DNA from: Alphaproteobacteria bacterium
GTDB taxonomy: Bacteria > Pseudomonadota > Alphaproteobacteria > GCA-2731375
NCBI GenBank assembly: GCA_030746635.1
Contig: JASLMH010000009.1
Span: 1-50,764 of the forward strand
Length of the DNA: 50,764 nucleotides
Direction of reading: 5' to 3'
Shown here: piece by piece, positions 1-18,265 of the stretch
Position numbering within the stretch: position 1 is the stretch's first letter
How the letters are laid out: each line of letters opens with the position of its first letter
Program-made: the position numbers and the translations under genes
The notes under the pieces: model-generated
Told to the model about the DNA's origin: nothing
What the model saw: only the letters and a program-made list of their open reading frames with translations
The model's database searches: none

Positions 1-1167
1 CATCAGGGCGAGCATGGGAAAGATCATCAAGATGTATCTGATCCGCGGCGCCTCGAAGGCCACGACCAGCACCAACAACCAGGCGACGACGGCGAACTTC
101 AAATCCCGTCTCTTGACGGCGAGGTAAAGCGACCAAAGCGCCGCGGCGGCGACGAAGGGGTGGGTCTGGAACAGGAACGTCGAAATCAGGCTCTCGCTCC
201 AGCCGCCGAGCGCCGGCACCTGATAGCTAAGAAGCAGACCGATCTGCCCGGCGATGACGTCGCCTCCCCACAGGACGACCGCCCCGACAAGCAGGCCCGT
301 ACCGAGGCAAATGACGCCGGCACGGCGGCCGACCGTTGCCGCGCCGCGATCGAGGTGGGCCACGAAAATGACCGGAACGACGCTGAGCATCAGCCAATTC
401 GTGTACTTGGACAGAGCCGCGATCGCGATCGCCGTCGCCGCCAGCAGCAGCCAGCCACCGCCGTGCCGCACGGCTTTGATCGTCGTGAACACGGCGAAGG
501 TCAGAAAAAACATCGTCGGCACATCGACCAGCATCAGGGGCACCTGCGTCAGCAGGTACGGCATGGCCAGCAGCAGCACAGCACCAAAGGTCCCGGTGCG
601 ATCGTTCCACAGCATCCGGCCAATCAGGTAGGTCAGGACAACGGTGCCGGAAAAGAACGACGTGGCGGCAACCTGGATGGCGATCCGCGACTCGCCCAGG
701 ACGCCGAGCACGAGGCCGTAGATGAACGGCACCAGGGGCAGGTCCGTCCAAGCCGGAATTTCGCGGCCCCACTGCTGCAAGAAATATCCGACGCCATGGA
801 GTTCGAGGGACTTGGCCTGCACGAAATACCGCGCCGCATCCACGTTGACCTCGGGGATCGGCCACAGGGCGGCGGCGGCGAGGAACGATCCGGCAAAAAG
901 CACGGCCGCGCGGAGGCGGGCCGGCAAACGGACCCGCGACAGGACCAAGCTGCCGGCGAGCGCCACCGCCAGGGCCAGAAAGAGCGGCCGGATGTCGATG
1001 CCGGCGAACGCCCATTGCCAACTGACCAGACTGTTGTCGTCGAGAGCACGGAAGATGTAGAGGACGAGGAACGCCGACAGCGTCAGCAGGGAAACCAGGC
1101 CCATCCGGAGCGTGTCGATTTCGCTGCCGGAACGCGATTCCTCCGCATCCACCGTTTCTATTGCCAC
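1..1167 (-). CDS. GT39/PMT-type membrane glycosyltransferase, C-terminus cut by window edge
   Basis: The frame stays open from a GTG at 1167 to the left edge (389 codons, no stop), so the C-terminus lies outside the window. The translation is strongly hydrophobic with about nine or more candidate membrane helices. It has a DLPLVPFIYG loop after the first helices and a LVDVPTMFF segment, a layout like ArnT/dolichyl-phosphate-mannose mannosyltransferase (PMT_2, GT39) proteins. Such enzymes move a sugar from a polyprenyl-phosphate donor onto lipid or protein on the outer face of the inner membrane; the substrate here is unknown. The GTG overlaps the last 10 nt of the DsrH-like gene and follows AAGGTGA, so the two genes look translationally coupled. 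The family call is from topology and short motifs only. Confidence 0.65.
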   Translation of the reverse strand, partial: MAIETVDAEESRSGSEIDTLRMGLVSLLTLSAFLVLYIFRALDDNSLVSWQWAFAGIDIRPLFLALAVALAGSLVLSRVRLPARLRAAVLFAGSFLAAAALWPIPEVNVDAARYFVQAKSLELHGVGYFLQQWGREIPAWTDLPLVPFIYGLVLGVLGESRIAIQVAATSFFSGTVVLTYLIGRMLWNDRTGTFGAVLLLAMPYLLTQVPLMLVDVPTMFFLTFAVFTTIKAVRHGGGWLLLAATAIAIAALSKYTNWLMLSVVPVIFVAHLDRGAATVGRRAGVICLGTGLLVGAVVLWGGDVIAGQIGLLLSYQVPALGGWSESLISTFLFQTHPFVAAAALWSLYLAVKRRDLKFAVVAWLLVLVVAFEAPRIRYILMIFPMLALM

Positions 1168-1331
1168 GAAATCACCTTATCGGAGTCGAATATTAGGTCT
1201 ATTATTTCGTCATAAGACAAATTTGTCTTGGAAAGGTCGATGATTTCCCTCCTATCTTCTTGTGCCATGGCATCTATTACTTCCGTGTACAAGGGTTCGT
1301 CGCCGTCGTTCAGGATGTGAAGTATTTTCAT
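1158..1331 (-). CDS. 57-aa DsrH/TusB-like sulfur-relay protein
   Basis: A 57-residue protein starting MKILHILND and ending DKVISWQ. The N-terminal beta strand (KILHIL) and the terminal V-x-W resemble the start and end of DsrH/TusB, subunits of the DsrEFH/TusBCD persulfide-relay complexes. At about 60% of normal TusB length it would be a minimal version. It has no cysteine, so it could only be structural. A longer in-frame start at 1382 exists, but its extension is arginine-rich and unlike the family; ATG 1331 fits better. It lies third among small DsrE-type genes and overlaps the glycosyltransferase start. Family assignment is tentative; that it is a real gene is supported by the coupling and by neighbours of similar type. 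Confidence 0.6.
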   Translation of the reverse strand: MKILHILNDGDEPLYTEVIDAMAQEDRREIIDLSKTNLSYDEIIDLIFDSDKVISWQ

Positions 1332-1413
1332 GACCGTGTCCGATCTTTTCGGCTCGGGGCGGCTGCGCCGGTCCGCTGGCATGGCGTTTCCCGGCCGTTG
1401 TCGTGGCCGGGTC

Positions 1414-1722
1414 CTACAGGACGATCATCCGAGCCGCCTGATGGTTCATCACCGCATTGTTCAATTGACTGCCGCCCTCGACCTCCGGCGGCAAGGTGTC
1501 GGTATCGATCTCGTGTTCCCGCGCACTGTGGTCGCAAAAACTCATCGAAACGCCGTCGGCCCCGGCCAGTGCCACGAACGAGTCGTCCCTCAGTAACCGG
1601 GTTCCGGAATCCATGACAAAAATCGTGACCTCATGCCCTTTGTTGACAGCCGCGGTGGTCAGCCCCAGAACGTGCGCCAGATGCCCGTCGGTGTTCACGA
1701 GGATTCCCAGTATCACGCCCAT
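1414..1722 (-). CDS. DsrE/DsrF-family protein, 102 aa
   Basis: Starts MGVILGILVNTDGHLAH, then GHEVTIFVMDSG and a single cysteine in a SFCDHSA segment, ending GSQLNNAVMNHQAARMIVL. Alternating beta strands and helices with a mid-protein Cys after an AGADGV turn are characteristic of the DsrE/DsrF-like (YchN-fold) family, which carries sulfur as a Cys persulfide or assembles into DsrEFH-like oligomers. ATG 1722 is preceded by GGAAGGGG very close to the start; an in-frame GTG two codons on is an alternative. It belongs to a run of minus-strand genes downstream of a YeeE/YedE transporter, which supports a role in sulfur handling in the cytoplasm. The exact partner and reaction cannot be read from sequence. 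Confidence 0.7.
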   Translation of the reverse strand: MGVILGILVNTDGHLAHVLGLTTAAVNKGHEVTIFVMDSGTRLLRDDSFVALAGADGVSMSFCDHSAREHEIDTDTLPPEVEGGSQLNNAVMNHQAARMIVL

Positions 1723-1959
1723 CCCCTTCCATTGACCACGGCAGAACCTGCGCTCACGCTCCATGCGGCCCCTCGCGACGAGGCGCGCGACCACACATTA
1801 TTCAGCGATTCCAGGCGCCCAAAGGGTGCGGAATGGCAAATTCTAAGCGCCGCGATCAGCGGTTGAAATGATGTAACTGCATCATGCCATGGATCGGCCT
1901 TCGGCACTGGCGAAGGGAGCAATTCGCGCCCGGAAGAGCCGCCGGAACGCTGCAGGGCG
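1723..1959. other. 237-nt gap inside the sulfur cluster
   Basis: No convincing coding frame on either strand. It separates two DsrE-type genes that are otherwise closely packed, so it may hold a separate promoter for the distal genes. A short palindrome-like stretch (ATGATGTAACTGCATCAT, 1868-1885) lies in the middle and could be an operator or a transcript hairpin. Nothing more can be supported. Confidence 0.35.
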
Positions 1960-2232
1960 TCAATAGCAGAGGACGTGGTCGTACTCGCGCAATTTGCGTC
2001 CGATATCGGCGGTCGGAGCGAACTCCAGATCGGTGTTGTCCTCGCGGTTCGAAAACACGTTGACATCCAACTCCTTGAGCAACTCGAGATGCTCGGCGGC
2101 GGGCCCGCTGTCCTGGATCTTCATGTCCAACACGTAAACGTCGACCTCGTCGTCCATCAGCGTCAGCCCCAGAGACATTCGAAAGGCCTCGTCGACGCGG
2201 CTGCGGACGATAACCGCGAGCCTCTTGACCAT
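1960..2232 (-). CDS. DsrE-like small protein, 90 aa
   Basis: Starts MVKRLAVIVRS, then DEAFRMSLGLTLMDDEVDVYVLD, an ELLKELDVNVFSN segment and ends EYDHVLCY. The pattern (beta strand, helix with a GL-x-L turn, beta strand ending in D, later helix and strand) matches the DsrE/TusD-like fold. The only cysteine is the penultimate residue, an unusual place that recalls the swinging-arm Cys of DsrC/TusE, although the fold is not DsrC. It starts 40 nt after the PAS-LuxR gene ends and is probably in the same transcript. Likely a cytoplasmic subunit of a small sulfur-relay complex with its two neighbours; this is inference. Confidence 0.65.
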   Translation of the reverse strand: MVKRLAVIVRSRVDEAFRMSLGLTLMDDEVDVYVLDMKIQDSGPAAEHLELLKELDVNVFSNREDNTDLEFAPTADIGRKLREYDHVLCY

Positions 2233-2272
2233 TGATGCGGCCTCCCTGAGTTCCCCTCGTTGCCGGTGCTGC

Positions 2273-2917
2273 CTAGATCAGGTTATGGCGATACGCGTAG
2301 GCAACGGTTTCGGCCTGGCTGTGCACCCCCAGTTTCGCTTGGATGTGCTGGATGTGGTTGCGCACGGTCACCAGACGGATACCCAACAGGTGGGATATCA
2401 CCGTGGCGGATTTGCCTTCCGCCAGCAACTCCAGGATTTCCTGCTGCCGCGGCGTCATCGGCGAAACGGTCCCGTTCCCGCCCCGGGCGCGCCCGCCGCC
2501 GTTGCTCCCGGACGGCGCCTCGGGCTGAGGGACCAGGTCCTCGATGGTGCTCTCGGCGTGGTCCCGGTGCAGGAGGTGGACGCAGGTCCACCGCTCATCG
2601 CCTTTGGAGGGCACCAAAATGATGCTCACCGACAGTTTCAACGTCTTGCCATTCGCGCCCCGCAATTGCAGCTTGAACGTCTTTGGCCCTTCCCCGCCGT
2701 CGATCACCCGCGAGACGCAACATTCCTTTTCGCAAAACCGGTCGCCAACCAGGGTCCTGCCCGCGAGGACGTCGTCGCAGGGGCGGCCGATGGCCTCCTC
2801 CGCGGGAATACCCAAAAGCTGGCCGCAGGCGGAATTCCAGAAGGTGATCCGCTGGTTGCCGTCGACGGCGAACACACCGTCCACGGTCTGGTGAAAAAAT
2901 TCAGCGATGCTGGGCAT
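2273..2917 (-). CDS. PAS domain / LuxR-type HTH transcriptional regulator
   Basis: 214 aa. Residues about 5-110 form a PAS domain (FHQTVDGVFAVDGNQRITFWN start; GxPAEEAIGR turn). A Gly/Arg-rich linker follows, then a C-terminal LuxR/FixJ helix-turn-helix (TPRQQEILELLAEGKS, then VTVRNHIQHIQAKLGVHSQ). The PAS domain carries a Cys pair in a CEKECC segment near residue 63, which could sense redox state or bind a metal or cofactor. It sits inside the sulfur cluster between the YeeE/YedE transporter and the DsrE-like genes, so it probably controls this operon in response to sulfur or redox conditions. ATG 2917 follows a GGGAAAGCAGG Shine-Dalgarno-like stretch. The ligand is unknown. Confidence 0.85.
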   Translation of the reverse strand: MPSIAEFFHQTVDGVFAVDGNQRITFWNSACGQLLGIPAEEAIGRPCDDVLAGRTLVGDRFCEKECCVSRVIDGGEGPKTFKLQLRGANGKTLKLSVSIILVPSKGDERWTCVHLLHRDHAESTIEDLVPQPEAPSGSNGGGRARGGNGTVSPMTPRQQEILELLAEGKSATVISHLLGIRLVTVRNHIQHIQAKLGVHSQAETVAYAYRHNLI

Positions 2918-3006
2918 GAATGCCTGCTTTCCCGGTTCGCCATTTCCCCTCTTTGGCCAACCGGCCGCCGGACCACACGGCGCGGGACAATACCGTTGAT
3001 CGCCGC

Positions 3007-4176
3007 TCAGTCATTGCGCTCGCCGAACATCGGACGCAACTGGATGCCGATCCAGTTGCCGGGGATGGCGCAGGCGATCCAGACCCAACCGTGCAGGCTG
3101 GCCGAAGCGAGGCCGCTGAAGAATGACCCGATATTGCAGCCGTAACCAAGGCGCGCGCCGTATCCCATCAACAGTCCGCTGACAACGGCCGAGACCAGGG
3201 GGCGTAGCGAGGTGATCGGTTTCGGAGACACTTTGCTGGCCAGCGACGCGGCGATCAGGGCACCGAGCAGGATGCCGATGTTGGTCACCGAGACGTCATC
3301 GGCCAGGACCGGGCGGGTCAGAGCCGCCAGCGAGTAGCCGTCGTTCCAGAACGGGCTGGTCGCTGGATCCCAGCCCAGGGCCACCGCCACCTTCGCGGCC
3401 CAAAGCGAAAAGCCCCAGGTAATCGACCAGGGATGGCCGGAGAGCAGCAAGGTCGCCCAATTCAACAACGCCAGCAGCCCGGCGCTCAACAGCAGCGGCC
3501 AGGGACCGCGCAACAGGTGCATCCAGTGAAATCCGTTTTCCCACCAGATCGATCGCTGGTTGCGGGCACCGGCGATCCTGAGCCCGAAATAGATCAGGAC
3601 CAGGGCGGCGAGCTGCATGGGCAGGGCGATTTCCCAGCCGAATTCACGGGCCAGCGACACTTTGCCGATGCCGGGCAGGCGGCTCCACCAGTCGAGGTCG
3701 AGGCTGCCCCAGAACGCGCCGGCACAGAAAAAGACCATAACCAGCACCATCCGCAGGTTGCCCCCACCGGCGGAAAAAAGGGTGCCCGAGGCGCAGCCAC
3801 CGCCGAGTTGCATGCCGATACCGAATACGAAGGCCCCGAGAGCCATCGAAATGCTGACCGGTGCGATCGCACCGCCGACGCCATGGCCGAAGGCACTCCC
3901 CTGCGCCAGGATCGGCGCGAACAGCAACATTGCCGCGGCCAGCATCAGCATCTGGGCGGTGATGCCCGACATATCTCCATGGACGATGACGCGACGGTAG
4001 GAGCCGGTGAAGCCGAACGAGGCGTGGTACAGCGAGACGCCCATCGCGATGCCGATCAGGAGAAGGCCCGCCTGCCGAACGTTCAGGCCGAAGGTATAGC
4101 CGAGCACACCCATTGTCATGACGACGGCGAGAGCAAGAACGGGGCGCTGGACGGGAGAAAGGGCGGCGGCGGTCAC
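3007..4176 (-). CDS. YeeE/YedE-family (TsuA-like) sulfur transporter, two repeats
   Basis: 389 aa with about ten membrane helices. Two half-repeats each carry the family cysteine motif: GGGCASGTLFSAGGG in the first half and GYGCNIGSFFSG in the second. In characterised YeeE/TsuA proteins these cysteines line a thiosulfate pathway across the inner membrane, so import of thiosulfate or another reduced sulfur compound is likely. The GTG at 4176 was chosen because AGGGGAG lies 8 nt upstream and the protein then starts close to the first helix; the 31-residue extension to 4269 is Arg-rich and non-family-like. It is first in a minus-strand series with the PAS-LuxR regulator and DsrE-like proteins, consistent with uptake followed by intracellular sulfur relay. 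Confidence 0.88.
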   Translation of the reverse strand: MTAAALSPVQRPVLALAVVMTMGVLGYTFGLNVRQAGLLLIGIAMGVSLYHASFGFTGSYRRVIVHGDMSGITAQMLMLAAAMLLFAPILAQGSAFGHGVGGAIAPVSISMALGAFVFGIGMQLGGGCASGTLFSAGGGNLRMVLVMVFFCAGAFWGSLDLDWWSRLPGIGKVSLAREFGWEIALPMQLAALVLIYFGLRIAGARNQRSIWWENGFHWMHLLRGPWPLLLSAGLLALLNWATLLLSGHPWSITWGFSLWAAKVAVALGWDPATSPFWNDGYSLAALTRPVLADDVSVTNIGILLGALIAASLASKVSPKPITSLRPLVSAVVSGLLMGYGARLGYGCNIGSFFSGLASASLHGWVWIACAIPGNWIGIQLRPMFGERND

Positions 4177-4427
4177 GGATCGGTCTCCCCTTTCGTCCCT
4201 GGGGTGACGACGTCGGCATGGACGGCTCGACCTACCCCCAATGTGGCCGGCCCGATCCAACTGGTCCACCTACCTTGCGAGACGTCCGGCTCTCGTATGT
4301 GCCCGGCTGATCTGGCCGAAGCGAAGCGTAGGCCATGGCGGCGGGTCGTGGCAAGATGGCCATGGCATCTCGTCCCAGCGATGGCGGCCCCGCGTCTTTT
4401 GGAATGGGGTCCGGGCCTAACCGGACG

Positions 4428-6053
4428 CTAATTCGATCTCTTGAAACTCAAAGATCCCACAATGTCGGCGGCATCGTTGAACTCTCGCCACGGATGGGCG
4501 GCGAGGTAAATCCACTTTCCTTCCCGAAAAACCGAGACCAGATGGGTCGTCAGGTCAAGACCCTGATAGCGCCATTTGAGCTCGGTTTTGTATGCCGGCG
4601 TTCCGTCGTCCAGAACGATCCGCCTGTTGCCGGCAACCGTGACGTCCTTGGCTAAAGCCTTGAGGAAACCGGCATATGTCCTTGGCCCCACGTCCGATAG
4701 CGCGACACCGGCGGGTATCTCGGCGACGCTGGCGCCAAATCGGACGCCGGATGGGGATTGCATCCGCATCACCTGGTTTGGCGTCGACAACGGCATCTTG
4801 CGGCTGCCGAACGGAACGCTGAATTTGAAACCAGGCGCCGCCGTTCTGAGAAACCCGCCGTCGCGAACAATCCCGTCCTCGGCCGACCTCCACATAATAT
4901 CTTCCACTGGCCCGATGGTCGTCTTCTTGACCAGTTCCCGCAGGCGCGCCTGTTGCGCCTGGTCCGCCGGCAATGCCGTTTCCGAGCGCGCCGCCGGGAT
5001 GATGTGTCGTGTCAGCAAGTCCCTGGGGACTTTGAATTTCGCGCCGTCCAGATCGCTGGTAAACACGGCGACCAGATTTTTCCGCGGCACCACGAAGATG
5101 AACTGGCCCCGGTAGCCGACGGCCATGTAGTAGCCGGAGGCATCGCGCCACCATTGATAGCCGTAATGATCAAACAGGGTGGCGTCGGTATGCCGCCTGG
5201 TCGACCTCTCGACCCAGGCTTCGGAGACAATCTGGCGGTCGGCCCATTTGCCCTTGTTCAGATAGAGCCAACCAAACTTGGCCATGTCGTGCGGCCTCAG
5301 CCACATTTCGCCATAACCGACGGATAGGCCCTTGGGCGATTCCGGCCAAGCCACATCGCTAATGCCAAGCGGGCCAAACAGGTGCTTGCGGGCATAGTCC
5401 AGGGCGGACGTCCCGGTTGCCTGCTGCAGGATCGCCGAAAGCAGAAACGAGACCCCATTGCAATAATCAAAAAGCCGGCCCGGTTCCCGGGCCATCGGCA
5501 GATCAAGGACATGTTGCGCCCAATCCGGACTTCGGCGCATTTCCCACAGACCGACCCATCGATGACGATAGCTGTCCTTGCAGTCGAAACCGGCGGTCAT
5601 GGTCAAAAGATGTTCCAGCGTCATGGACCGTTTGCGGGCATCCATGTTGGCGACGACCCGGCCGGGAAAGAAACCGGTCACCGGCTGGGTCACGCTTTCG
5701 ATTTCGCCCCGGTCCAGCGCGATGCCGATAAGCGCGGACATGAAGCTTTTGGTGTCCGAGTGAATGATGTGTTTCAGGCCCTTTTCAAAGGGAGAGAAAT
5801 AGCTGTCCAGCACGAGATAACCGTTGCGCACCACGGTGACGCTGTCGATGCGATATCTATACTCGTGTATTTCCGCCAACAGGTCGGCCAAGGGCTCGGC
5901 AGCCACGCCCTGATCTTCTGGAGAGGAATGGCGCCAACCATCGGTCGGCCAATAATCGGCCGACATCGCGGTCCCGGCGCGAAAATTTTGCAGGAGCAGA
6001 ATGAAAACAATCAGCACCGCGCCGATTGTTGGCTTGATCCGTGGGCTACGCAT
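4428..6053 (-). CDS. Exported serine hydrolase, class C beta-lactamase family
   Basis: 541 aa from the ATG at 6053, which has GGAGGAG just upstream; an alternative ATG at 6074 adds seven residues. An N-terminal hydrophobic segment (AVLIVFILLLQNF) is a signal peptide or membrane anchor. The catalytic SxxK motif is SDTK (about residues 99-102), and the YxN motif is YCN in LFDYCNGVSF. The fold is that of penicillin-binding-protein/esterase-like serine hydrolases (Beta-lactamase, PF00144) and not necessarily an antibiotic-resistance enzyme. About 150 residues after the core are poorly conserved-looking and may be a family-specific C-terminal domain. Substrate unknown; acts outside the cytoplasm. 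Confidence 0.85.
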   Translation of the reverse strand: MRSPRIKPTIGAVLIVFILLLQNFRAGTAMSADYWPTDGWRHSSPEDQGVAAEPLADLLAEIHEYRYRIDSVTVVRNGYLVLDSYFSPFEKGLKHIIHSDTKSFMSALIGIALDRGEIESVTQPVTGFFPGRVVANMDARKRSMTLEHLLTMTAGFDCKDSYRHRWVGLWEMRRSPDWAQHVLDLPMAREPGRLFDYCNGVSFLLSAILQQATGTSALDYARKHLFGPLGISDVAWPESPKGLSVGYGEMWLRPHDMAKFGWLYLNKGKWADRQIVSEAWVERSTRRHTDATLFDHYGYQWWRDASGYYMAVGYRGQFIFVVPRKNLVAVFTSDLDGAKFKVPRDLLTRHIIPAARSETALPADQAQQARLRELVKKTTIGPVEDIMWRSAEDGIVRDGGFLRTAAPGFKFSVPFGSRKMPLSTPNQVMRMQSPSGVRFGASVAEIPAGVALSDVGPRTYAGFLKALAKDVTVAGNRRIVLDDGTPAYKTELKWRYQGLDLTTHLVSVFREGKWIYLAAHPWREFNDAADIVGSLSFKRSN

Positions 6054-6386
6054 CGGCTCCTCCACTCCCGTCATTCGATCCGATGGACCTTCTTAGCTCA
6101 ATAGCGGCAGCCAATCGATCAATGGGGAGTTTGCGTTTTCATCGGGATCTTGACGAAGCCCATTTGGTTTGAAGTTGCGGTGGCGGCGATGGAGCGGTGC
6201 ATGAAACTCGATGCTCCCGACTTCGCCTTTGGGTCACTGAGTAGCGTCAGCCCGGCGGACCCTGCGTGGCAGCCATAACCGGAAAGCGGGCTGTCCGGAA
6301 GGCTGCCGAGGAGATCCATTCCAACGGCGGCGCAACCTAAAGTACGATCACCATGAATTCGTGGCTTGTCCAGGAAATGTCGGACC
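6054..6386. other. 333-nt intergenic region with a degenerate repeat copy
   Basis: Divergent promoter space between the serine hydrolase (minus) and the APH-type kinase (plus). No convincing gene. A minus-strand frame ending at 6119 is open but looks low-complexity and non-family-like. The region holds one copy of a degenerate repeat (6231-6273) that recurs in the gap after the kinase gene. Confidence 0.5.
6231..6273 (+). repeat. Degenerate intergenic repeat, copy 1
   Basis: This 43-nt stretch aligns without gaps to 7307-7349 with 34 identical positions by eye, sharing GGGTCA, AGCGTC and the 12-mer GGACCCTGCGTG. Both copies lie in non-coding gaps on either side of the APH-type kinase gene. 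It looks like a decayed dispersed intergenic element. Confidence 0.45.
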
Positions 6387-7199
6387 ATGGCAGCACTGTC
6401 GGAACTTGGACTAAGGATCGGGGTCGGGCGAACGGCGGAAGTGTTCGCTTTTGGCGACGACCGCGTAATCAAACTTTTCTTTCCCGACTTCCCCGAGACG
6501 TCCGTCCAAACTGAAGCCCGTGCCGGTGAACTGGTCGCAACGGCGGGCCTGCCGGCGCCGGGTTTCCACGGGCTCGTTGAAATCGACGACCGTCCGGGCA
6601 TCGTCTATGAACGATTGGAAGGCCGAACCATGCTGGAAGCGGTGCGCCGGCGGCCCCATGAGTTGCTCCGCCTAACCCGCCAGTTCGCGGCCCTGCATCG
6701 CCAACTACATCAATGCGAAATCCCCGAGCTCAGGTCGTATCGCGGCTCGCTCGCGAATCAAATTCAAAATGCCACCGGCTTGACCGGAGCGGACAAGGAC
6801 CGGCTGATCAATTGCTTGCGCGGTCTGCCACCAGATCGGCAGGTGGTCTGCCATGGCGACTTTCACCCCGACAATATCATGCTGACCCGCCGGGGACCGG
6901 TGGTGATCGACTGGATGACCGCCTGTTCCGGTGAGCCGGCGGCGGACGTCGCCCGTAGCCTCTTGCTGTTGGCCATCGGCACGCCCGTCGAAATGGACGC
7001 GCTGGCGCGGTTGATGACGGCGCTGGTGCGGCGTTTTTTCCGCCGTCGTTATCAAGCGCATTATTTTCGGGACTGCGATTTGACGCTGTCACAGGTACGG
7101 GCCTGGCTGCCTGTCATCGCCGCCGCCCGCTTGGCCGAAGGGATCGAGGATGAGACCGAGCAGCTGATAGCGTTGGCAAAAACCGTAATGGAATCCTGA
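6387..7199 (+). CDS. APH-family phosphotransferase (aminoglycoside/choline-kinase fold)
   Basis: 270 aa. It has a protein-kinase-like N-lobe (GVGRTAEVFAFGDDRVIKLF, nucleotide loop and Lys), then the catalytic loop CHGDFHPDNIM and the metal-binding VIDW motif, the signature of the APH superfamily (PF01636). It would transfer a phosphate from ATP to a small hydroxyl- or amino-compound in the cytoplasm; nothing indicates which. ATG 6387 is favoured over the upstream TTG at 6366 because it begins next to the first strand and has AGGAA upstream. It is flanked by two copies of a degenerate repeat and stands alone, with no obvious operon partner. Confidence 0.85.
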   Translation: MAALSELGLRIGVGRTAEVFAFGDDRVIKLFFPDFPETSVQTEARAGELVATAGLPAPGFHGLVEIDDRPGIVYERLEGRTMLEAVRRRPHELLRLTRQFAALHRQLHQCEIPELRSYRGSLANQIQNATGLTGADKDRLINCLRGLPPDRQVVCHGDFHPDNIMLTRRGPVVIDWMTACSGEPAADVARSLLLLAIGTPVEMDALARLMTALVRRFFRRRYQAHYFRDCDLTLSQVRAWLPVIAAARLAEGIEDETEQLIALAKTVMES

Positions 7200-7514
7200 A
7201 CGGCCACTTCGCAAGATTCGTTCGAGGTTGATTCCTTGAGACCGAGAAGAAACTGCCTTGAAGTTGTGGGCCGACCTTCCTGCCAATGGCCGCAACGACC
7301 GAAAAAGGGTCATTCAGCAGCGTCTGCCTGGAGGACCCTGCGTGACTGCTAGCAAAGGTGCGGCGGTCGTGACGTGCAACTTAACGGGCGCAAATCCGCT
7401 TCGCCTCCGACGGCGTGCGTCAACCGGATTGCCCGCCGACCGACGTTCGTGGCCAAATGCAGCCATCCCTAACAATCATGATAAGGGGGCAGATGTTCGG
7501 GGAGGCCGGCTGTC
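7200..7514. other. 315-nt intergenic region with the second repeat copy
   Basis: No supported gene; an 86-codon plus frame here has atypical composition for this genome and no domain. A stretch reading TGGCCGCAACGACCGAAAAA followed by GGGTCATTC (about 7287-7315) looks like a decayed intergenic relic and runs into repeat copy 2. The 3' end provides the ribosome site GGGGAGG for the DUF2332 gene. Confidence 0.45.
7307..7349 (+). repeat. Degenerate intergenic repeat, copy 2
   Basis: Partner of 6231-6273 (34 of 43 positions identical by eye, same orientation). Lies in the gap downstream of the APH-type kinase gene. Confidence 0.45.
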
Positions 7515-8501
7515 ATGAAACGATTGGATGACGACCTCGCGAAGCTGGCGCGGCGATATGCCCGTTTCGCTTCGGTGGAAGCCCGGGATTCCTCACCGAG
7601 TTACGAACGGCTGGCCAGGCAGGTGGCGCAATCCAATGAGCTTCTCGAGTTCATTGCGGCACTTCCCCCGGAACGACAGCAGCCGAACCTGTTCCTGGCG
7701 GCCCTCCGCGCCACGGGCGAGCTTCCCCACGGCAACGGTGCACTCGAGGAAATCATTCGCCTGAATGGTGAACGGGTGCGCCAGGTCATGCTGACGCACG
7801 CCACGCAAACCAACGAACCTTCACGCTGCGCGGTTCTGTTGCCCGCCCTGGCGACGTTGCCGCAGCCGCTCGCGCTATTGGAAGTCGGCGCTTCGGCCGG
7901 GCTTTGTCTGCTGCCGGATCGATATGCCTATGACTACGACGGCATCCGGATTTCCCCATCGGGCGAAGGGAATGCCCCGGCACCCGTGTTCCCTTGCACC
8001 GTCAATCGGCATACCCCGGTTCCGCAACGGAATATCGATGTCGCGTGGCGCGCGGGCCTCGACCTCAATCCACTCGACGTGCACGCCGCCGCCGACATGT
8101 CATGGTTGCGGACGCTTGTCTGGCCGGAACATCATGATCGTGCGAGCCGGTTGAATGCGGCGATCGAAGTTGCCCGGTCCGACCCGCCCCGGGTGGTCAA
8201 GGGCGATTTGCGCGGCGACCTGCCGGCGCTCGCCGCGACCGCGCCGAAGGAAGCGACCCTCGTCGTCTACCACACGGCGGTCCTGGGTTATCTGCGCGAA
8301 CAGGCCGATCGCAGCAACTTCGCCGCCATGGTTCGAGGGCTCGGCGCGGTCTGGATCAGCAATGAAGCACCCTTCGTGTTCCCGGAATTAGCCAAGAACG
8401 CGGCAGCCGCGCCATCGCCCGATATGTTCCTGCAAGCCGTCGACGGTGTTCCGGTGGCCTGGTCGGGACCGCACGGCCAATCCCTGCACTGGTTTGGATA
8501 A
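7515..8501 (+). CDS. DUF2332 family protein
   Basis: 328 aa. The overall pattern matches the DUF2332 family: an N-terminal helical region (RYARFASVEARDSSPSYERLA), a central LLEVGASAGLCLLPDRYAYDY segment, a later ATLVVYHTAVLGYL strand and a C-terminal WSGPHGQSLHWF end. The EVGASAGL segment resembles motif I of Rossmann-like methyltransferases, so a SAM-dependent activity is possible, but no function is established for the family. GGGGAGG lies 8 nt before ATG 7515. No operon partner: the next gene starts 125 nt downstream on the same strand. Confidence 0.8.
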   Translation: MKRLDDDLAKLARRYARFASVEARDSSPSYERLARQVAQSNELLEFIAALPPERQQPNLFLAALRATGELPHGNGALEEIIRLNGERVRQVMLTHATQTNEPSRCAVLLPALATLPQPLALLEVGASAGLCLLPDRYAYDYDGIRISPSGEGNAPAPVFPCTVNRHTPVPQRNIDVAWRAGLDLNPLDVHAAADMSWLRTLVWPEHHDRASRLNAAIEVARSDPPRVVKGDLRGDLPALAATAPKEATLVVYHTAVLGYLREQADRSNFAAMVRGLGAVWISNEAPFVFPELAKNAAAAPSPDMFLQAVDGVPVAWSGPHGQSLHWFG

Positions 8502-8626: not shown

Positions 8627-10573
8627 ATGACGCAGTATCCCGAGCTCTTTCGCCCCGGCCGGATCGGCGCGCTGGAAATACCCAACCGCATCGTCTTCGC
8701 CGCCACCTCCTCCGAGTTGGCCGATGGCGACGGCCTGGTCACCGACGACATGATCGCCTTCTACGCCGAGCGCGCCCGCGGCGGCACCGGCCTGATCGTG
8801 GTCGAGGCGACCTATGTGGAGCAGGCGGGCAAGCGCCTCAAGCACAACGCCATGCTGCACGACGATGGCTGCATCCCGGGCATGCGCAAGCTGGTCGCGG
8901 CGGTGCACGCGGCCGGCGCCCGCATCGCGGTGCAGCTGAACCACGGCGGCCGCGAGAGCATTCCCGAGGTCTCCGGCTCGCCGCCGCTGGCACCATCGCC
9001 GCTGCCATCGGGCTACACCGCCGTCGGCGCGGCGGTGGTACCGCGAGAGCTGACCCTGGCGGAGATCGAGCGCATCGTCGGGCGCTTCGCCGAGGCCGCG
9101 ATGCGGGCTCGCGAGGCCGGCTTCGATGCCGTCGAGATCCACGGCGCGCATGGCTATCTGGTCGGCCAGTTCCTCTCGCCGGCCTGCAACAAGCGGCAGG
9201 ACCGCTACGGCCACGACACGGCCGGCCGGGCCCGTTTCGGGGTCGAGCTGGTGGAGGCGATCAAGGCGCGGCTCGGCGCCGGCTTTCCGGTGATTTTCCG
9301 GATGAACGCACGCGATCACGTGCCCGGTGGCCTGGAGCTCGAGGAAGCGGTCGAGATCGCGGCCCTGTTCGAGGCCGCCGGCGCCGACGCCATCAGCGCC
9401 TCGGGCGGTCTGCACGCCTCGCGCCCCTACATGATCATTCCGGGCATGGCCATCGGGCACGGCTGTTATGCCGATTGCAGCGCCGCCATGCGTCAAAGGG
9501 TCGGCATTCCGGTGATGACCGTCGGCCGCATCAACACGCCGGAGATCGCCGAGGGCATCCTCGAACGGGCCGAGGCGGACTATATCTGCCTGAGCCGCCC
9601 GCTGATCGCCGATCCGTACTTCGCCGCCAAGGCGCGGGCGGGCGAGGCGGCGCGGATCGCCCCCTGCATCGCCTGCAACGAGTGCATCGCCACGGTTCAT
9701 CTGCACAAGGGGCTGGCCTGTACCGTCAACCCGATGGTCAGCCGCGAGCTGGAGTTGCAGCCGCTGCTGGCGCGGCGGCCGACGCCGAAGCGGCTGGCCG
9801 TCATCGGTGGCGGTGCCGCCGGCATGGCGGCGGCGATCACCGCCGCCGAGCGGGGCCACGCCGTGCACCTGTTCGAGAAACAAAGCCGCCTGGGCGGTCA
9901 GCTGACCCTGGCCCACCGACCGCCGCACCGCGAGGAGATCGAGCGGCTGCTGGACTATTTCCGCGCCGAAGTCGCCCGCCTCGATATCGAGGTGAGCCTC
10001 AATGCCAGCCCCTCTGCCGACGCCGTCCGTGCCCTCGGGGCGGATGCGCTGATCGTCGCCATCGGCGCCGAGCCGGTGCTGCCCAGCGTGCCCGGAGCCG
10101 AGCTGGCGCACGTCCTGCAGGGCTGGCGCGTGCTCGCCGGACTGGAAACGCCGGGCCCGAACTGCGTCGTGGTCGGCGGCGGGCTGGTCGGCGTCGAGGT
10201 CGCCGACATGCTGGCCGACGGGGGTCGCAAGGTCGTCCTGGTGGCGCGCTCCGAGCTCCTGAAAAAGGCGGTGCATGCCGACCGGGTCCACTACCTCGAT
10301 CGCGTGGACAGCTTCGGCATCGAGGTGATGTCCCACACGCAGGTCCTGGAGATCCGGCCCGGCGAGGTCGTGCTGGAGCCGGAGAACCGGCTGCGGCGAA
10401 CCCTGGGCGGCGTCGACAGCGTGATCTACTGCATGGGCTACCATCGGCGGGAAGCCGAGGCCGAGGGCTATCGAGACGTCGGCATCCCGGTGCACTACGT
10501 CGGTGACGTGCTCGGCTCGCGCAAGTTCTTCCAGGCGATCGAGGAGGGCACCCTGGCGGCTCTCGAGATCTAG
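8627..10573 (+). CDS. FadH/TMADH-like NADH:flavin oxidoreductase (OYE barrel + Fe-S + NAD(P) domain)
   Basis: 648 aa. Residues about 1-335 are an old-yellow-enzyme FMN barrel (RIGALEIPNRIVFA start; HGAHGYLVGQFLSP with downstream NKRQDRYG). Next comes a 4Fe-4S Cys cluster beginning CIACNEC (Cys 347, 350, 353, then a Cys 13 residues on). The last third is an FAD/NAD(P)-binding pair of Rossmann domains (AVIGGGAAGMAAA near 390; CVVVGGGLVGVEVADM near 520). This three-part architecture is shared by 2,4-dienoyl-CoA reductase and trimethylamine dehydrogenase. Electrons would flow NAD(P)H to FAD to 4Fe-4S to FMN to an unsaturated carbonyl substrate. The first Cys spacing is C-x2-C-x2-C, one residue shorter than in E. 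coli FadH. Substrate unknown. Confidence 0.9.
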   Translation: MTQYPELFRPGRIGALEIPNRIVFAATSSELADGDGLVTDDMIAFYAERARGGTGLIVVEATYVEQAGKRLKHNAMLHDDGCIPGMRKLVAAVHAAGARIAVQLNHGGRESIPEVSGSPPLAPSPLPSGYTAVGAAVVPRELTLAEIERIVGRFAEAAMRAREAGFDAVEIHGAHGYLVGQFLSPACNKRQDRYGHDTAGRARFGVELVEAIKARLGAGFPVIFRMNARDHVPGGLELEEAVEIAALFEAAGADAISASGGLHASRPYMIIPGMAIGHGCYADCSAAMRQRVGIPVMTVGRINTPEIAEGILERAEADYICLSRPLIADPYFAAKARAGEAARIAPCIACNECIATVHLHKGLACTVNPMVSRELELQPLLARRPTPKRLAVIGGGAAGMAAAITAAERGHAVHLFEKQSRLGGQLTLAHRPPHREEIERLLDYFRAEVARLDIEVSLNASPSADAVRALGADALIVAIGAEPVLPSVPGAELAHVLQGWRVLAGLETPGPNCVVVGGGLVGVEVADMLADGGRKVVLVARSELLKKAVHADRVHYLDRVDSFGIEVMSHTQVLEIRPGEVVLEPENRLRRTLGGVDSVIYCMGYHRREAEAEGYRDVGIPVHYVGDVLGSRKFFQAIEEGTLAALEI

Positions 10574-10828
10574 TGGGAGGAGTCCGACATATCGCGGCCA
10601 TTGCAGAAAACTTGACTCATGGACATGCTTCGAGACGGGCGCTCCGCGCCCTCCCCGGCATGAGGAGCACTTCAACCGGAGGAGAGCCGCCGGCGTGTCT
10701 CGAAGGACGCATGGGACAAGTCATGCCCTTCGCATCTTGGTATAAGGCGGACAAATAGTCGGCTTCGGGTCATCTTTCCCCGTTCGGGGAATTGACCGGC
10801 CATCGAAACCATGAGGAGTTATCGAACC
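10574..10828. other. 255-nt intergenic region
   Basis: Contains the palindromic repeat at 10624-10713 and, at 10776-10791, a compact hairpin (TTCCCC-GTTC-GGGGAA) 38 nt before the SDR start. The hairpin has no T-run, so it is not a standard terminator. The ribosome site of the SDR gene (GAGGAG) is at about 10811-10818. Confidence 0.5.
10624..10713. repeat. Alphaproteobacterial palindromic intergenic element
   Basis: The outer arms are TCGAGAC (10630-10636) and GTCTCGA (10697-10703), each extended by an imperfect CATGC/GCATG end. Inside the left arm is a perfect GGGCGC-tcc-GCGCCC hairpin (10637-10651). The words CTTCGAGACGGGCGC, CATGAGGAG and TCTCGAAGGAC are typical of a REP-like element found in many copies between genes of rhizobial and related genomes (recalled knowledge). 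It may act as an mRNA-stabilising or terminating structure after the FadH-like gene. Confidence 0.7.
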
Positions 10829-11593
10829 ATGAAACCCGTCTGCCTGGTAATTGGTGCCGGCGCCGGTATCGGCGGCAATGTCGGAAAGCGCTTCGCCCAA
10901 GAGGGCTATCACGCCGTCCTCTGTCGACGCACCGACCAGGAAGGCCTGAACGGCTTGGTGGCAAGCATCGAGAGCGACGGCGGGTCGGCGTCCGGCTTCC
11001 TGCTCAACGCCATCGACGCCGACAGCATCGAGGGGCGGGTGGCCGCCATCGAGGCCGATATCGGTCCGATCGAAGTCGTGGTTTTCAATCTGGGCGCCCA
11101 AATCGGTGACCGGGCGTTGGCGGACACCTCCTACAAGGCATTCGAGATGGGCTGGCGACTCGCCACCTTTGCCTTGTTTCGCGTCGCGTCGACCGTCTGC
11201 CCGCTGATGGAGGAACGTGGCAAGGGCACGATCCTGGTCACCTCGGCGACGGCGGCGGTGCGCGGGAACAGCGGCCAGCACTCCCATGCGGCGGCCATGG
11301 GCGGACGACGCATGCTGTGTCAGACCCTCAACGCGGAGTTCGGACCGAAAGGCATTCACATCGCCCATATCCTGATCGACGGCGCGGTGGATGCGCCCGA
11401 TACCTTGGGCAAGATGCTCGGCCCGGAGCGCTTCCAGCAGCTCAGGGAAACGCGCGGCCTGGAACATGATGGGCTGATGCTGCCGGCCAGGATCGCCGAT
11501 ACCTATTTCCACCTGGCCCAACAACATCGATCGACCTGGACCCACGAAATCGACATGCGGTCGTTTTCCGACATGCCGTGGTGGAACCACTAG
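10829..11593 (+). CDS. Atypical short-chain dehydrogenase (SDR) lacking the catalytic Tyr/Lys
   Basis: 254 aa. The N-terminal nucleotide-binding turn is GAGAGIGGNVGKRF, followed by an NLGAQ segment (NAG equivalent) and the catalytic Ser strand ILVTSATAAVRGNS. Where classical SDRs have YxxxK, this protein reads HAAAM, so both catalytic Tyr and Lys are missing. It retains an EFGPKGIHIAHILIDGAVD segment typical of a divergent SDR subgroup. It may bind NAD(P)(H) without classical oxidoreductase chemistry, or use other residues. ATG 10829 is preferred because GAGGAG lies 10 nt upstream; an ATG at 10811 would start inside that site. Stands alone between the palindromic element and an exosortase substrate. 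Confidence 0.8.
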   Translation: MKPVCLVIGAGAGIGGNVGKRFAQEGYHAVLCRRTDQEGLNGLVASIESDGGSASGFLLNAIDADSIEGRVAAIEADIGPIEVVVFNLGAQIGDRALADTSYKAFEMGWRLATFALFRVASTVCPLMEERGKGTILVTSATAAVRGNSGQHSHAAAMGGRRMLCQTLNAEFGPKGIHIAHILIDGAVDAPDTLGKMLGPERFQQLRETRGLEHDGLMLPARIADTYFHLAQQHRSTWTHEIDMRSFSDMPWWNH

Positions 11594-11690
11594 AAGTGAT
11601 CGCTCAGTAGGTTGTCCGCTCGATCCGAGCCGCCGGGACGCGCCGCCCGGCACCGCAACGACGTGGTGGTGGATGGCGAGGGCGTGGGCT

Positions 11691-11729
11691 GATATCGTGG
11701 AATAGAAACGCCGGTTTGAAGATATCGTG
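11691..11729. promoter_or_regulatory. Two direct repeats upstream of the exosortase-substrate gene
   Basis: GATATCGTG occurs at 11691-11699 and again at 11721-11729, exactly 30 bp apart (about three helical turns) and 60-100 nt before the start at 11792. Same-face tandem sites of this kind often bind an activator or repressor. The protein that would bind is unknown, and chance recurrence cannot be excluded. Confidence 0.3.
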
Positions 11730-11791
11730 TGCCGGGTGCAACGAGTGGCGTCGGTGGTGGGCTCGGTTCGAGTTGTAGGGGAGCGTCAGGA

Positions 11792-12406
11792 ATGAAAAGT
11801 CTGCGTTGGATCTGTTGTGTGATTTCGTTTTTTGCGTGGCAAAGTCCGGCCCACGCCGTGGTCATAGACTTTCTCAACATCAACAATGCCTTCGGCACCT
11901 TGGGCGTGCTGGGTCAGATCAACACCCGGACGAATCCCTATGGCGGCACCATGGAAATTGCGACGGGTATCAATCTGCAAACCGAGGCCGGCGCGGCGAC
12001 TGCGGGCGACCTGACCGTTACCGGCGGCGCGGGGTTCATCCTGAACTTCGCCCAGACCGTATCGTCGGTGCGGGTGCGCTTCAGTGACAACAAGGACCTC
12101 AATCAGCGGTATCTGAGGTCCTACGACACCAACATTACCTTCGCCGCGCCGATCCCGCCGGAAATCGGCCTGACCTCGCTGACGGTAACGAGTCCCACGC
12201 CGGGAGCGGGCAACGATTTCTTTGACCTGACGTTGAGCGATCCGACGATCCGTGCCGTCCGGGTCACCTCCGGTAGCGCCTACCATTGGGCGGTCAACGA
12301 AATCGAGTTCGATTTCGTGTCCATTCGCGAGCCCGCCACCTCGGCCCTATTCGGCCTCGGCCTGCTCGGCCTGGCGGCGGCAAGACGCGGACGACGGCCG
12401 GCCTGA
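11792..12406 (+). CDS. PEP-CTERM-type exosortase-sorted secreted protein
   Basis: 204 aa. A signal peptide (WICCVISFFAWQSPAHA) is followed by a beta-rich domain of about 160 residues with many Thr/Gly/Asn. The C-terminal sorting signal has three parts: REPATS, a hydrophobic helix (ALFGLGLLGLAAA) and a basic end (RRGRRPA). This is the PEP-CTERM architecture recognised by exosortase, which cleaves near the Pro motif and releases or anchors the protein at the surface, usually with exopolysaccharide. The motif is EPA rather than strict PEP. No exosortase gene is in the window. The ATG was chosen for the signal peptide that follows; upstream codons are not signal-like. Its stop is 8 nt from the end of the convergent PLP-enzyme gene. 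Confidence 0.8.
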   Translation: MKSLRWICCVISFFAWQSPAHAVVIDFLNINNAFGTLGVLGQINTRTNPYGGTMEIATGINLQTEAGAATAGDLTVTGGAGFILNFAQTVSSVRVRFSDNKDLNQRYLRSYDTNITFAAPIPPEIGLTSLTVTSPTPGAGNDFFDLTLSDPTIRAVRVTSGSAYHWAVNEIEFDFVSIREPATSALFGLGLLGLAAARRGRRPA

Positions 12407-12414
12407 TCCTCTGC

Positions 12415-13368
12415 CTACGGGCCGCCGTCCTTGTAGAGGTCCGTGCTCAAATACTTGAGGCCCGAATCGCACATCACCGTGACGACGGTCGCCTCCGGTC
12501 CGAGCCGCCTGGCGACCTTCAACGCGGCGACCAGGTTGCCGCCGGTGGAGGTGCCGGCGAACAGCGCGTCCGAGGGGGCCAGCCGCCGGGTCATCTGCTT
12601 GGCCTCGGCCGTCGAGACGGTGGCGATGTCATCGACCAGGCCCGGCGCCCACAACGGCACCACGAAGCCGGCGCCGATGCCCTCGATCTTGTGGGCGCCC
12701 GTCTCCCGGCCGGACAGCACGGCGGACTCGCTCGGCTCGACCGCGACGATTTGGATATCGGGGTTCCTTTCGCGCAGGCTCTCGGCCACGCCGCGCAACG
12801 ACGCCGCCGTGCCGACGCTCTGCACGAAGGCGTCGACCTTGCCTTCCGTCTGCCGCCAGATCTCGTCACCCATGGCCCGGTAGGCGATCAACTGATCGGC
12901 GTTATTGAGCTGATCCGTCCAGAACCCGGCCGTGCGTTGGCGGATCTGGCGCGCGGTCTCGATCATGTCGCGGATCAGCCCTTCGTCGATGCCGCCGTCG
13001 ACGCTGTCGACCAGGGTCAGCTCGGCGCCCAGGGCCCGCATATGGTCCCGCTTCTCGAGGCTGAACGCCTCCGAGGTCACCACATGCAGCGGATGGCCCT
13101 TTGCCCGACAGACCAAGGCCAGCGACACACCGGTGCTGCCGCCGGAATACTCGACGACCTCGCCGCCGTGTCGCAGCCGCCCGTCCGCCTCGGCCGCTTC
13201 GATCATGGCCAGGGCCGCCCGGTCCTTCATGCTGCCGGTCGGGTTCTCGCTCTCGATCTTCAGGAGGACGCGGGCGCCATCGCCGGGAACCAGGCCGCGC
13301 AACCGGATCAATGCTGTCGCCCCGATCCGCTCGAGGATCGATGCATGGATGGGTTCGTCGTGCGGCAT
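12415..13368 (-). CDS. Cysteine-synthase-family PLP-dependent enzyme
   Basis: 317 aa. It has the fold-type II PLP signature: ENPTGSMKDRAA with the Schiff-base Lys at about residue 48, EYSGGSTGVSLA (substrate loop), and a GTSTGGN phosphate-binding loop near the C-terminal third. This is close to O-acetylserine sulfhydrylase (CysK) or a related beta-replacing enzyme, which would make cysteine or a similar amino acid in the cytoplasm. There is no CBS domain, so it is not a typical cystathionine beta-synthase. ATG 13368 has GGAGG 8 nt upstream. It lies directly after the RBBP9-like gene on the same strand (23-nt gap), so the two are probably co-transcribed, divergent from the LysR gene. Confidence 0.88.
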   Translation of the reverse strand: MPHDEPIHASILERIGATALIRLRGLVPGDGARVLLKIESENPTGSMKDRAALAMIEAAEADGRLRHGGEVVEYSGGSTGVSLALVCRAKGHPLHVVTSEAFSLEKRDHMRALGAELTLVDSVDGGIDEGLIRDMIETARQIRQRTAGFWTDQLNNADQLIAYRAMGDEIWRQTEGKVDAFVQSVGTAASLRGVAESLRERNPDIQIVAVEPSESAVLSGRETGAHKIEGIGAGFVVPLWAPGLVDDIATVSTAEAKQMTRRLAPSDALFAGTSTGGNLVAALKVARRLGPEATVVTVMCDSGLKYLSTDLYKDGGP

Positions 13369-13391
13369 GGTGGGAACCTCCGGGAGGGCGG

Positions 13392-13973
13392 TCATGGTCG
13401 GGGCGGCACCTGCCGCCGCAGAAAATCGGCCAGAACGGCCAGCCCGCGCGGCCAGGGACCACAGCCGGTCTCGACCGAAATGTGGCCCATCGCCCCGACG
13501 CACAGGTAGTCGCTGCCCCAGCCGCGGGCGAAATGCCGCGCCCGTTCGGCGCTGACGAAGAAATCGTCGGTGCTGGCCACGACGATGCTCGGGAAGGGGA
13601 AGCGCGGCAGCGGCATGGGGGCGAACGGCTGCACCACTTCGAACCCCGGCCTTTCCTGGTCGACGTCGCCGGGCGCCACCAGCATCGCCGCCGCCACGGC
13701 CGGCATCGGACCGGCGATTTGTCCGCGCCGGCTCCGCTCCACCCAATGGGCGACCAGCACGCAACCCAGGCTATGGGCCACCAGGACAGCAGGTTTCCGG
13801 CAGGCCGCCAGGTAACGGTCCAATACCGACAGCCAGCCATCGAGGTCGGGGCGGTCCCAATTCGCCTGCTCGACCACCCTGCCATCGGCGACCTCGTGCC
13901 GCCACAGCGACTGCCAATGTCCCTCCGCCGGTGGGCCGATCCCCGGCACCATGAGAAAGCTGTATTGGTCCAT
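13392..13973 (-). CDS. RBBP9/YdeN-family alpha/beta hydrolase
   Basis: 193 aa, the usual size of the RBBP9-like (DUF1234, YdeN) serine hydrolases. It shows MVPGIGPPAEGHWQSLW at the N-terminus and the nucleophile elbow VAHSLGCVLV. The acid residue is in the VASTDDFF segment and the catalytic His in GAMGHIS. Substrates of bacterial members are mostly unknown. First of a two-gene unit with the PLP enzyme; the start codon faces the LysR gene across a short (about 95 nt) divergent promoter region, so that regulator is a likely controller. Confidence 0.85.
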   Translation of the reverse strand: MDQYSFLMVPGIGPPAEGHWQSLWRHEVADGRVVEQANWDRPDLDGWLSVLDRYLAACRKPAVLVAHSLGCVLVAHWVERSRRGQIAGPMPAVAAAMLVAPGDVDQERPGFEVVQPFAPMPLPRFPFPSIVVASTDDFFVSAERARHFARGWGSDYLCVGAMGHISVETGCGPWPRGLAVLADFLRRQVPPRP

Positions 13974-14021
13974 GCCGCCTCGTTTCGCCCCGCCGTCGCC
14001 GGCACCATTTCGGCCGCTACA

Positions 14022-14039
14022 ATTAATTGGTCAATAAAT
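14022..14039. promoter_or_regulatory. Possible LysR-type operator, overlapping an alternative LysR start
   Basis: ATTAATTG-gt-CAATAAAT is a near-perfect inverted repeat (7 of 8 positions) in the divergent region between the RBBP9-like hydrolase and the LysR gene. It is AT-rich and sits where an autoregulatory LysR site is expected. It overlaps an upstream ATG (14038), which favours the later start at 14068. Confidence 0.35.
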
Positions 14040-14067
14040 GAACCGAAAGACGTATGGTTGCGCCGCG

Positions 14068-14982
14068 ATGGTGCGAAATCGATCCATTAACTGGGATGAC
14101 CTGCGGGTCTTTCTGGCGGTCTTCCGATCGCGGTCCCTGCGCGGCGCCGCCCGCCTGCTGGGGCTCAATCATGCCACGGTGAACCGCCGGCTGCGCGCCC
14201 TGGAAGCCGGTCTCGGCAGCAAGCTGTTCGACCGGACACGGCACGGCTTCTTCCCGACCCAGGCGGGCGAGGACCTGCTCGACGGGGCGGAGCGGGTCGA
14301 GGACGAGCTGTTCAAGGTCCAGCGGGAACTTGCCGGACGCGATGCCGACCTCGACGGCGTCGTGAAGGTCAGCCTGCCCCATGCCGTCATGCGCGGCTTC
14401 CTGGCGGCCGATTTGTGTGCCTTCTCGCGGCGCTACCCGGGCATCGATCTCGACCTCGACCTGACGGATTTGTTCTCCGATCTGACCCGCCTGGAGGCGG
14501 ATGTCTCGATCCGCATGGCCCACGAGGTGACCGACGACGTGGTGGGCCGACGGTTGGTCCGGTATGCCAAGACGATCTACGCGGCCCCCGAAGTGGCGAA
14601 AACACTCGATCCGACGTCCGGCGTTCCCGATGAAGAGCGGATCTGGCTCGGCTGGCACGGCGGCGATGGCGATGTGTCCTGGGTCCGCGGCACCTCCTAT
14701 CCGCACCTGCCGGCGCGGCACAACCTGCCGAACCACGCCCTGCAGCTGGAAATGGCCCGGGCCGGCCTGGGACTGACCATGCTGCCCTGCTTTCTGGGGG
14801 ACCGGGAACCGGGCCTGGTCCGGGTGCCGGGTGCGGTACCGATGCCGGACCGCAGTATCTGGTTGTTGTTGCGCACCGATCTGCGCCGCATGGCCCGCGT
14901 CCGCGCCTTCGTCGACTTCATCGCCGCCGCCATCCTCGACCACCGGGATTTGCTGGAAGGACGGAGCCGGGACGACACTTAG
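14068..14982 (+). CDS. LysR-family transcriptional regulator
   Basis: 304 aa from ATG 14068; an alternative start at 14038 adds ten residues and overlaps a palindrome. The N-terminal winged helix-turn-helix reads INWDDLRVFLAV, RSLRGAARLLGLNHATVNRRLRALE, then GSKLFDRTRHGFFPTQAGE. A periplasmic-binding-like effector domain covers residues about 90-300. Members bind upstream of divergent genes and respond to a small co-inducer. The target here is probably the RBBP9-like hydrolase and PLP enzyme just upstream on the other strand. The effector is unknown. Confidence 0.88.
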   Translation: MVRNRSINWDDLRVFLAVFRSRSLRGAARLLGLNHATVNRRLRALEAGLGSKLFDRTRHGFFPTQAGEDLLDGAERVEDELFKVQRELAGRDADLDGVVKVSLPHAVMRGFLAADLCAFSRRYPGIDLDLDLTDLFSDLTRLEADVSIRMAHEVTDDVVGRRLVRYAKTIYAAPEVAKTLDPTSGVPDEERIWLGWHGGDGDVSWVRGTSYPHLPARHNLPNHALQLEMARAGLGLTMLPCFLGDREPGLVRVPGAVPMPDRSIWLLLRTDLRRMARVRAFVDFIAAAILDHRDLLEGRSRDDT

Positions 14983-15118
14983 TGGGCGCCTTTTTCCGAC
15001 CGCAATTCGCCGGGCGCATCCATCGGCGAGCCCGCTACCGTCGGAGACCTTTACACATTTTTGGCGAAATTCAGCGGCGCGTGATCGCTAAGTCATTGAT
15101 TTTGTTTGAATGGGAAAG

Positions 15119-15134: not shown

Positions 15135-15180
15135 GTGTATAGGAATCGGGAAGGTATGCGAACGGGGAATGGAGGAAACC

Positions 15181-16977: not shown

Positions 16978-16998
16978 GGGTCGAAGGCGACCTAGGAC

Positions 16999-18233: not shown

Positions 18234-18265
18234 GGTCATTCAGTCAGACGAGAGGCCTGACACAG

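Follow-up and report, generated by a model that had tools for sequence, protein, structure and literature searches.

A short-subunit DsrEFH-like gene trio with a PAS-LuxR regulator and a candidate operator in an alphaproteobacterial genome

The window analysed here comprises 50,764 nucleotides of an alphaproteobacterial genome (positions 1-50764 of contig C306, from assembly G000, which has 5.08 Mb and is 83% complete) and carries, near its first position, three small genes next to genes for a PAS-LuxR regulator and a YeeE/YedE-family membrane protein. With moderate confidence, the three small genes are read as encoding a short-subunit DsrEFH relay of the YTD/type II kind, in the order DsrF (90 amino acids), DsrE (100 amino acids) and DsrH (57 amino acids), which would be switched by the PAS-LuxR protein through a palindrome and would feed most likely DsrC. 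This reading is built on gene identities and order, the cysteine of DsrE, the co-occurrence and spacing of the palindrome, four cysteines of the PAS domain and the dsr operon of the same genome; from these we infer complex formation, the direction of transfer, the acceptor, the binding and activation by PAS-LuxR, the signal and the substrate. All results are sequence-based, and several of the compared genomes are fragmentary assemblies.

Five open reading frames (ORFs) lie on the minus strand in the order YeeE1, PAS-LuxR, 90-, 102- and 57-amino-acid protein, and ORFs and Pfam matches agree with the order and positions that the initial annotation had given. Gene starts were set mechanically, except for the start of the 102-amino-acid gene, which was re-judged. 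The three small proteins recur in distant genomes, with their order kept and about 45-55% identity, and they are therefore real genes and not chance reading frames.

The middle protein of the trio (1414-1716, minus strand) is, judged by its profile and its invariant cysteine, a DsrE/TusD subunit. It matches the Pfam DsrE model with E=1e-4, just past the cut-off. Profiles were compared with those of canonical DsrE, DsrF and DsrH, taken from the dsr operons L013-L032 of its own and related genomes, and of E. coli TusD, TusC and TusB, with column-shuffled controls, and the short DsrE reached z scores of 16.7-19.4 against DsrE/TusD. Its Cys63, counted from an ATG start (Cys61 from the GTG), aligns with the active-site cysteine of TusD and is the only invariant cysteine in the short DsrE sequences (25/25). 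Translation from the ATG at 1722 gives 102 amino acids and from the GTG at 1716 gives 100; the GTG is probably the start, because an ATG is lacking at the corresponding position of L002 and the protein has 100 amino acids in the group's other relatives. Across sampled Pseudomonadota, the profile of this protein gave matches with E values of about 1e-3 to 2e-5; besides the window, 19 of the 20 were read and all of them were canonical DsrE. A DsrE-like protein with a VCAEAW motif, paired with a DsrF-like one, was also seen in L057, L059 and L061-L063 among housekeeping genes that resemble tgt, queA and anthranilate/p-aminobenzoate synthase genes.

The first protein of the trio (1960-2232, minus strand) is clearly DsrF/TusC-like by profile comparison and conserved gene order. 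The DsrF/TusC profile was the only one matched by its family, with z of 8.1 for all short F sequences and 3.9 for the closest group taken separately, and the comparison with canonical E and H gave no match. Its sole cysteine is residue 89, the penultimate one, as the initial annotation had pointed out, and the absence of cysteine from the 57-amino-acid protein is likewise borne out. Except in the closest relative, residue 89 is replaced by proline, alanine, serine or asparagine; since it is not conserved, it is not catalytic, and it was rejected as a relay residue.

The third protein (1158-1331, minus strand) is conserved in 11 relatives and is probably a cut-down DsrH/TusB, with a weak direct match. 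Across groups, the short H proteins are mutually related (z 15.5), and they score about 3 against canonical DsrH/TusB. Genes for dsrE, dsrF and dsrH thus defined, with H weakly identified, stand together in the window as well as in 11 relatives from its group. Neither the 90- nor the 57-amino-acid protein has a match in Pfam or NCBIfam. AlphaFold2 models built from four-row alignments are of low confidence: the 57-amino-acid protein has a pLDDT of 67 and a beta-alpha-beta-alpha-beta arrangement, and the 90-amino-acid protein has a pLDDT of 50. A Foldseek search of the PDB with the former model returned no match at E<=0.001, sequence searches of the PDB with the alignments of the 102- and 90-amino-acid proteins returned nothing significant, and tblastn against plasmids gave no match. 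The top PDB match of the 57-amino-acid alignment, 8g9k (E=0.0023), is a repetitive protein in which no one stretch matches significantly, and it was dismissed as chance.

The PAS-LuxR regulator (214 amino acids; 2273-2917, minus strand) matches the Pfam models GerE (2e-13) and PAS (2e-10), and its PAS cysteines C31, C47, C62 and C66 are invariant in the alignment of all eight homologues. The F and E genes are separated by 237 bp, which contain an 18-bp inverted repeat, ATGATGTAACTGCATCAT, at 1868-1885, of the form ATGATG-N6-CATCAT and without strand, which is a candidate operator of PAS-LuxR according to its distribution in relatives and a genome scan. The same palindrome arms are found in the F-E gap of 8/8 clusters with PAS-LuxR and of 0/4 related clusters without it (L004, L051, L145 and L146); the simple p-value of this co-occurrence is 1/495, which is too optimistic given the shared ancestry of the clusters. 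With at most one mismatch, the palindrome occurs genome-wide once in G000, twice in G395 and three times in G396, the genomes with PAS-LuxR, and five of these six sites are within the cluster. It was absent at the same tolerance from G397 and G879, which have no PAS-LuxR cluster, and a reversed pattern used as control had no site in any of the five genomes. A further copy is located upstream of a GT2 gene in four genomes (L009, L010, L140 and L143), with a rhodanese gene on its other side in three of them; in the fourth, the rhodanese is beyond the stretch examined. One one-mismatch copy outside the cluster (G396:C1:442228-442245; L116 10228) lies just upstream of a gene resembling those of universal stress proteins.

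Downstream of the palindrome, matches to the hexamer TATAAT peak at an offset of exactly 22 nt. Over 12 sites, the mean match at this offset is 3.58 of 6 positions, against 0.67-2.58 at other offsets, and the observed best-match mean was reached by 0 of 2000 shuffles. In the window, the hexamer is the candidate -10 box TAGAAT at 1840-1845 (minus strand). This spacing would place the palindrome at about -52 to -35, where class II activators bind. We infer that PAS-LuxR binds it and activates.

The conserved neighbourhood extends beyond the genes of the window. A scan with the 90-amino-acid protein identified three genomes (L002, L003 and L004), and profile searches added L051, from the order of L004's genome, and seven loci, L140-L146, from the class of L003's genome. 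The run PAS-LuxR, F, E, H and PMT_2 is present in the window, L002, L003 and L140-L144. In the window, the PMT_2 gene, for a glycosyltransferase-39-like protein with many membrane segments (1-1167, minus strand; called as an ORF and by its position in relatives), starts near 1167, overlaps the stop of the 57-amino-acid gene and runs off the contig, which cuts its 3' end; its homologue in L004 matches PF13231 with E=1.6e-9. Gene order past window position 1 is known from the relatives, and all seven with the PAS-LuxR run continue past PMT_2 to a second YeeE/YedE gene (YeeE2) and tusA. Farther on, mostly genes for an FAD oxidoreductase, a B12-binding radical SAM protein, a further radical SAM protein, a GT2 glycosyltransferase and a rhodanese follow, as far as the stretches reach, the radical SAM and GT2 genes after the B12 radical SAM gene being on the opposite strand. 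The B12 radical SAM, radical SAM/SPASM and GT2 genes are kept beside the sulfur genes in L009 (about 9740-14163), L010 (about 8693-13995) and L011 (about 13166-18237; all reverse-complement coordinates), and the stretches of L010 and L011 also include the FAD oxidoreductase. The rhodanese of L010 looks as if it opens with a predicted export signal.

Other relatives have smaller sets: L004 and L051 have the run F-E-H-PMT_2-YeeE2 without PAS-LuxR, and L145 and L146 are limited to a compact E-F-H trio. More distant trios (L053-L060 and L147-L154) adjoin YeeE/YedE, TusA and often rhodanese genes, with the order YeeE2-TusA-E-F in L147 and L149-L153. Searches of the 14 remaining genomes in the window's order and of a sample from its class found no set of the window type. 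The initial annotation had described a sulfur-relay operon of five genes; the DsrE-superfamily trio, the YeeE/YedE transporter and the cysteine-rich PAS-LuxR hold, but the five genes are not a self-contained unit, as the relatives extend past H. The PAS-LuxR-F-E-H run recurs in seven other genomes, but YeeE1 adjoins it only in the window and in its closest relative, L002.

YeeE1 (389 amino acids; 3007-4176, minus strand; Pfam Sulf_transp PF04143, E=1e-60) is the least conserved neighbour. Both cysteine motifs reported for it, GGGCASG and GYGCNIG, are present, and it has the second and third conserved cysteines of TsuA (C128 and C347). The first is missing, a glycine aligning with Cys25 of E. 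coli TsuA, and the protein scores under the NCBIfam cut-offs for TsuA; the YeeE2 proteins of relatives retain all three. Since SoxT1B needed all three conserved cysteines (PMC11582611), thiosulfate import by YeeE1, which had been proposed for the window, is uncertain.

A canonical dsr set is encoded in the same genome. Contig C117 of G000 (L098, about 4154-8415) includes a partial dsrB, dsrE (119 amino acids), dsrH (100 amino acids), and genes for DsrC and a DsrK-like protein along with further dsr-like genes. The short trio is hence a paralogue, which rules it out as the genome's only DsrEFH and contradicts the notion of a simplified relay that would be the only one of the cell. Given these genes, the reverse dsr pathway is probably the organism's route of sulfur oxidation. 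DsrA was detected in G395, G397 and G879. Within the window, an ORF at 21696-23408 resembles by eye a sulfate adenylyltransferase/APS kinase fusion, which would make it the contig's second sulfur gene.

In the proposed mechanism, a transporter and TusA, with an exported-looking rhodanese in relatives, would bring in sulfane sulfur, which would be passed as a persulfide to Cys61 of DsrE. The F and H subunits, neither with an essential cysteine, would shape the complex, and DsrE would pass the sulfur to an acceptor, most likely the DsrC that belongs to the genome's reverse dissimilatory sulfite reductase pathway. The four-cysteine PAS domain would sense a redox or sulfur signal, and PAS-LuxR, bound to the palindrome centred near -43, would activate a promoter inside the cluster, in the gap between F and E, from which E, H and PMT_2 (and YeeE2 and TusA) would be expressed. 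In relatives, it may also act on the GT2/rhodanese region.

Several observations weigh against this mechanism. Synteny with yeeE/yedE and tusA is seen in relatives, and the window has the adjacent YeeE1, its contig ending before the expected site of YeeE2 and TusA, so neither of the two is seen there; a YeeE2 search of the 83%-complete G000 for the continuation of the cluster gave weak matches, none of them close. The assignment of the 57-amino-acid protein to DsrH is weak, and neither co-occurrence nor spacing is proof of the identity of the protein that binds the palindrome. In G396, which carries the cluster along with six DsrC-family genes, no DsrA was detected; delivery to the reverse pathway is thus not universal, and the final sulfur acceptor may differ between hosts.

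That genome also fits an alternative in which the trio feeds not sulfur oxidation but a biosynthesis by the rest of the cluster, of a sulfur-containing glycolipid or small molecule. The genes in question, for the B12-binding radical SAM, radical SAM/SPASM, GT2, PMT_2 and FAD oxidoreductase proteins, share synteny with the trio in several genomes, from at least two lineages, and the candidate operator also stands upstream of GT2/rhodanese. However, dsr genes occur in G000, G395, G397 and G879, the short trio is adjoined by only YeeE, TusA and rhodanese genes in other branches, and no enzyme of the cluster has a known sulfur-inserting role; this alternative is judged unlikely. A dedicated delivery line, governed by the four-cysteine PAS-LuxR and its 18-bp operator, for a sulfur-containing glycosylated product of cobalamin radical SAM enzymes is a speculative thought and rather unlikely to be right.

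A sulfur-sensing branch, in which YeeE would import sulfane sulfur and the trio would present it to the four-cysteine PAS of the LuxR protein, is improbable: the PAS with its invariant cysteines is encoded directly upstream of the trio, and similar sensing was proposed for SoxT1B and SoxR-type repressors in Hyphomicrobium (PMC11582611), but the four trios without an adjacent PAS-LuxR and the size of the cluster, which argues for more than sensing, speak against it. That the 57- and 90-amino-acid ORFs are unrelated small proteins beside a single DsrE-like one, as their lack of Pfam and NCBIfam matches and the weak z of the shorter would allow, is very hard to reconcile with the many genomes in which a trio includes the DsrE-like gene and with the 90-amino-acid family's exclusive match to DsrF/TusC.

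Elsewhere in the window, neighbouring ORFs at 36800-38716 and 38700-40310 have, by eye, Rieske-like N-termini joined to parts that resemble thiamine-diphosphate enzymes and glutamate synthases. Exported-looking proteins at 11729-12406 and 15106-15960 have C-termini like PEP-CTERM sorting signals, also by eye.

Under the favoured reading of a PAS-LuxR-switched relay, Pseudomonadota with both the regulated short version and canonical dsr genes would make the two complexes separable genetically, and the candidate regulator and operator would make the inducing sulfur species directly testable. The co-occurrence of the 18-bp palindrome with PAS-LuxR and its class II-like placing are new here, and no paper describing a PAS-LuxR with YTD genes was found in the literature searched. 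Subunits as short as 56 amino acids are easily missed in surveys.

Compared with type I DsrEFH and E. coli TusBCD, the trio has the same subunit types, the active cysteine of DsrE and, by profile comparison, the same fold family. However, the subunits of dsr operons in this and related genomes have about 119, 133 and 100 amino acids, against 100, 90 and 57 here, E alone is strongly similar, Cys20 of DsrH is absent, and the short set lies away from dsrAB, the canonical set being separate on C117. The SoxT and TsuA(YeeE)-TsuB(YeeD) modules (PMC11582611, PMC11073785) share a YeeE-family transporter, a TusA-like partner (in relatives) and a nearby regulator with the present cluster, which differs in having a PAS-LuxR instead of an ArsR-type repressor, in including a DsrEFH-like trio and in the first conserved cysteine missing from the YeeE of the window.

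Work of 2026 identified the YTD cluster as encoding DsrEFH type II (PMC13293266; PMC13047784), whose role, in oxidation or disproportionation, is disputed on evidence mostly from sulfate reducers. The type II complex of Electronema aureum is a 1:1:1 heterotrimer or hexamer and exchanges persulfide with TusA and DsrC (PMC13293266). Judged from its arrangement and cysteine pattern against published descriptions (PMC13293266, PMC13047784, PMC9751629), the present trio likely belongs to type II. Both have three DsrE-superfamily subunits, a single active-site cysteine in DsrE (Cys67 there and Cys61 here), DsrH-like subunits without Cys20, F and H very dissimilar to type I, and adjoining YeeE/YedE and TusA genes (here in relatives); the YeeE-TusA-E-F order of L147 and L149-L153 is the YTD order of PMC9751629. 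The survey of 985 genomes in PMC13293266 included some Pseudomonadota and used a hidden Markov model cut-off of >80 bits for each subunit, which a 57-amino-acid H would probably fall short of, and the survey in PMC12998232 reported DsrE and hypothetical YTD proteins in three other phyla only. Most published type II sets come from Desulfobacterota and Nitrospirota, whereas the present one is from Pseudomonadota, has the gene order F-E-H with an H of 56-57 amino acids, and comes with a PAS-LuxR and its palindrome as well as PMT_2, radical SAM and GT2 genes.

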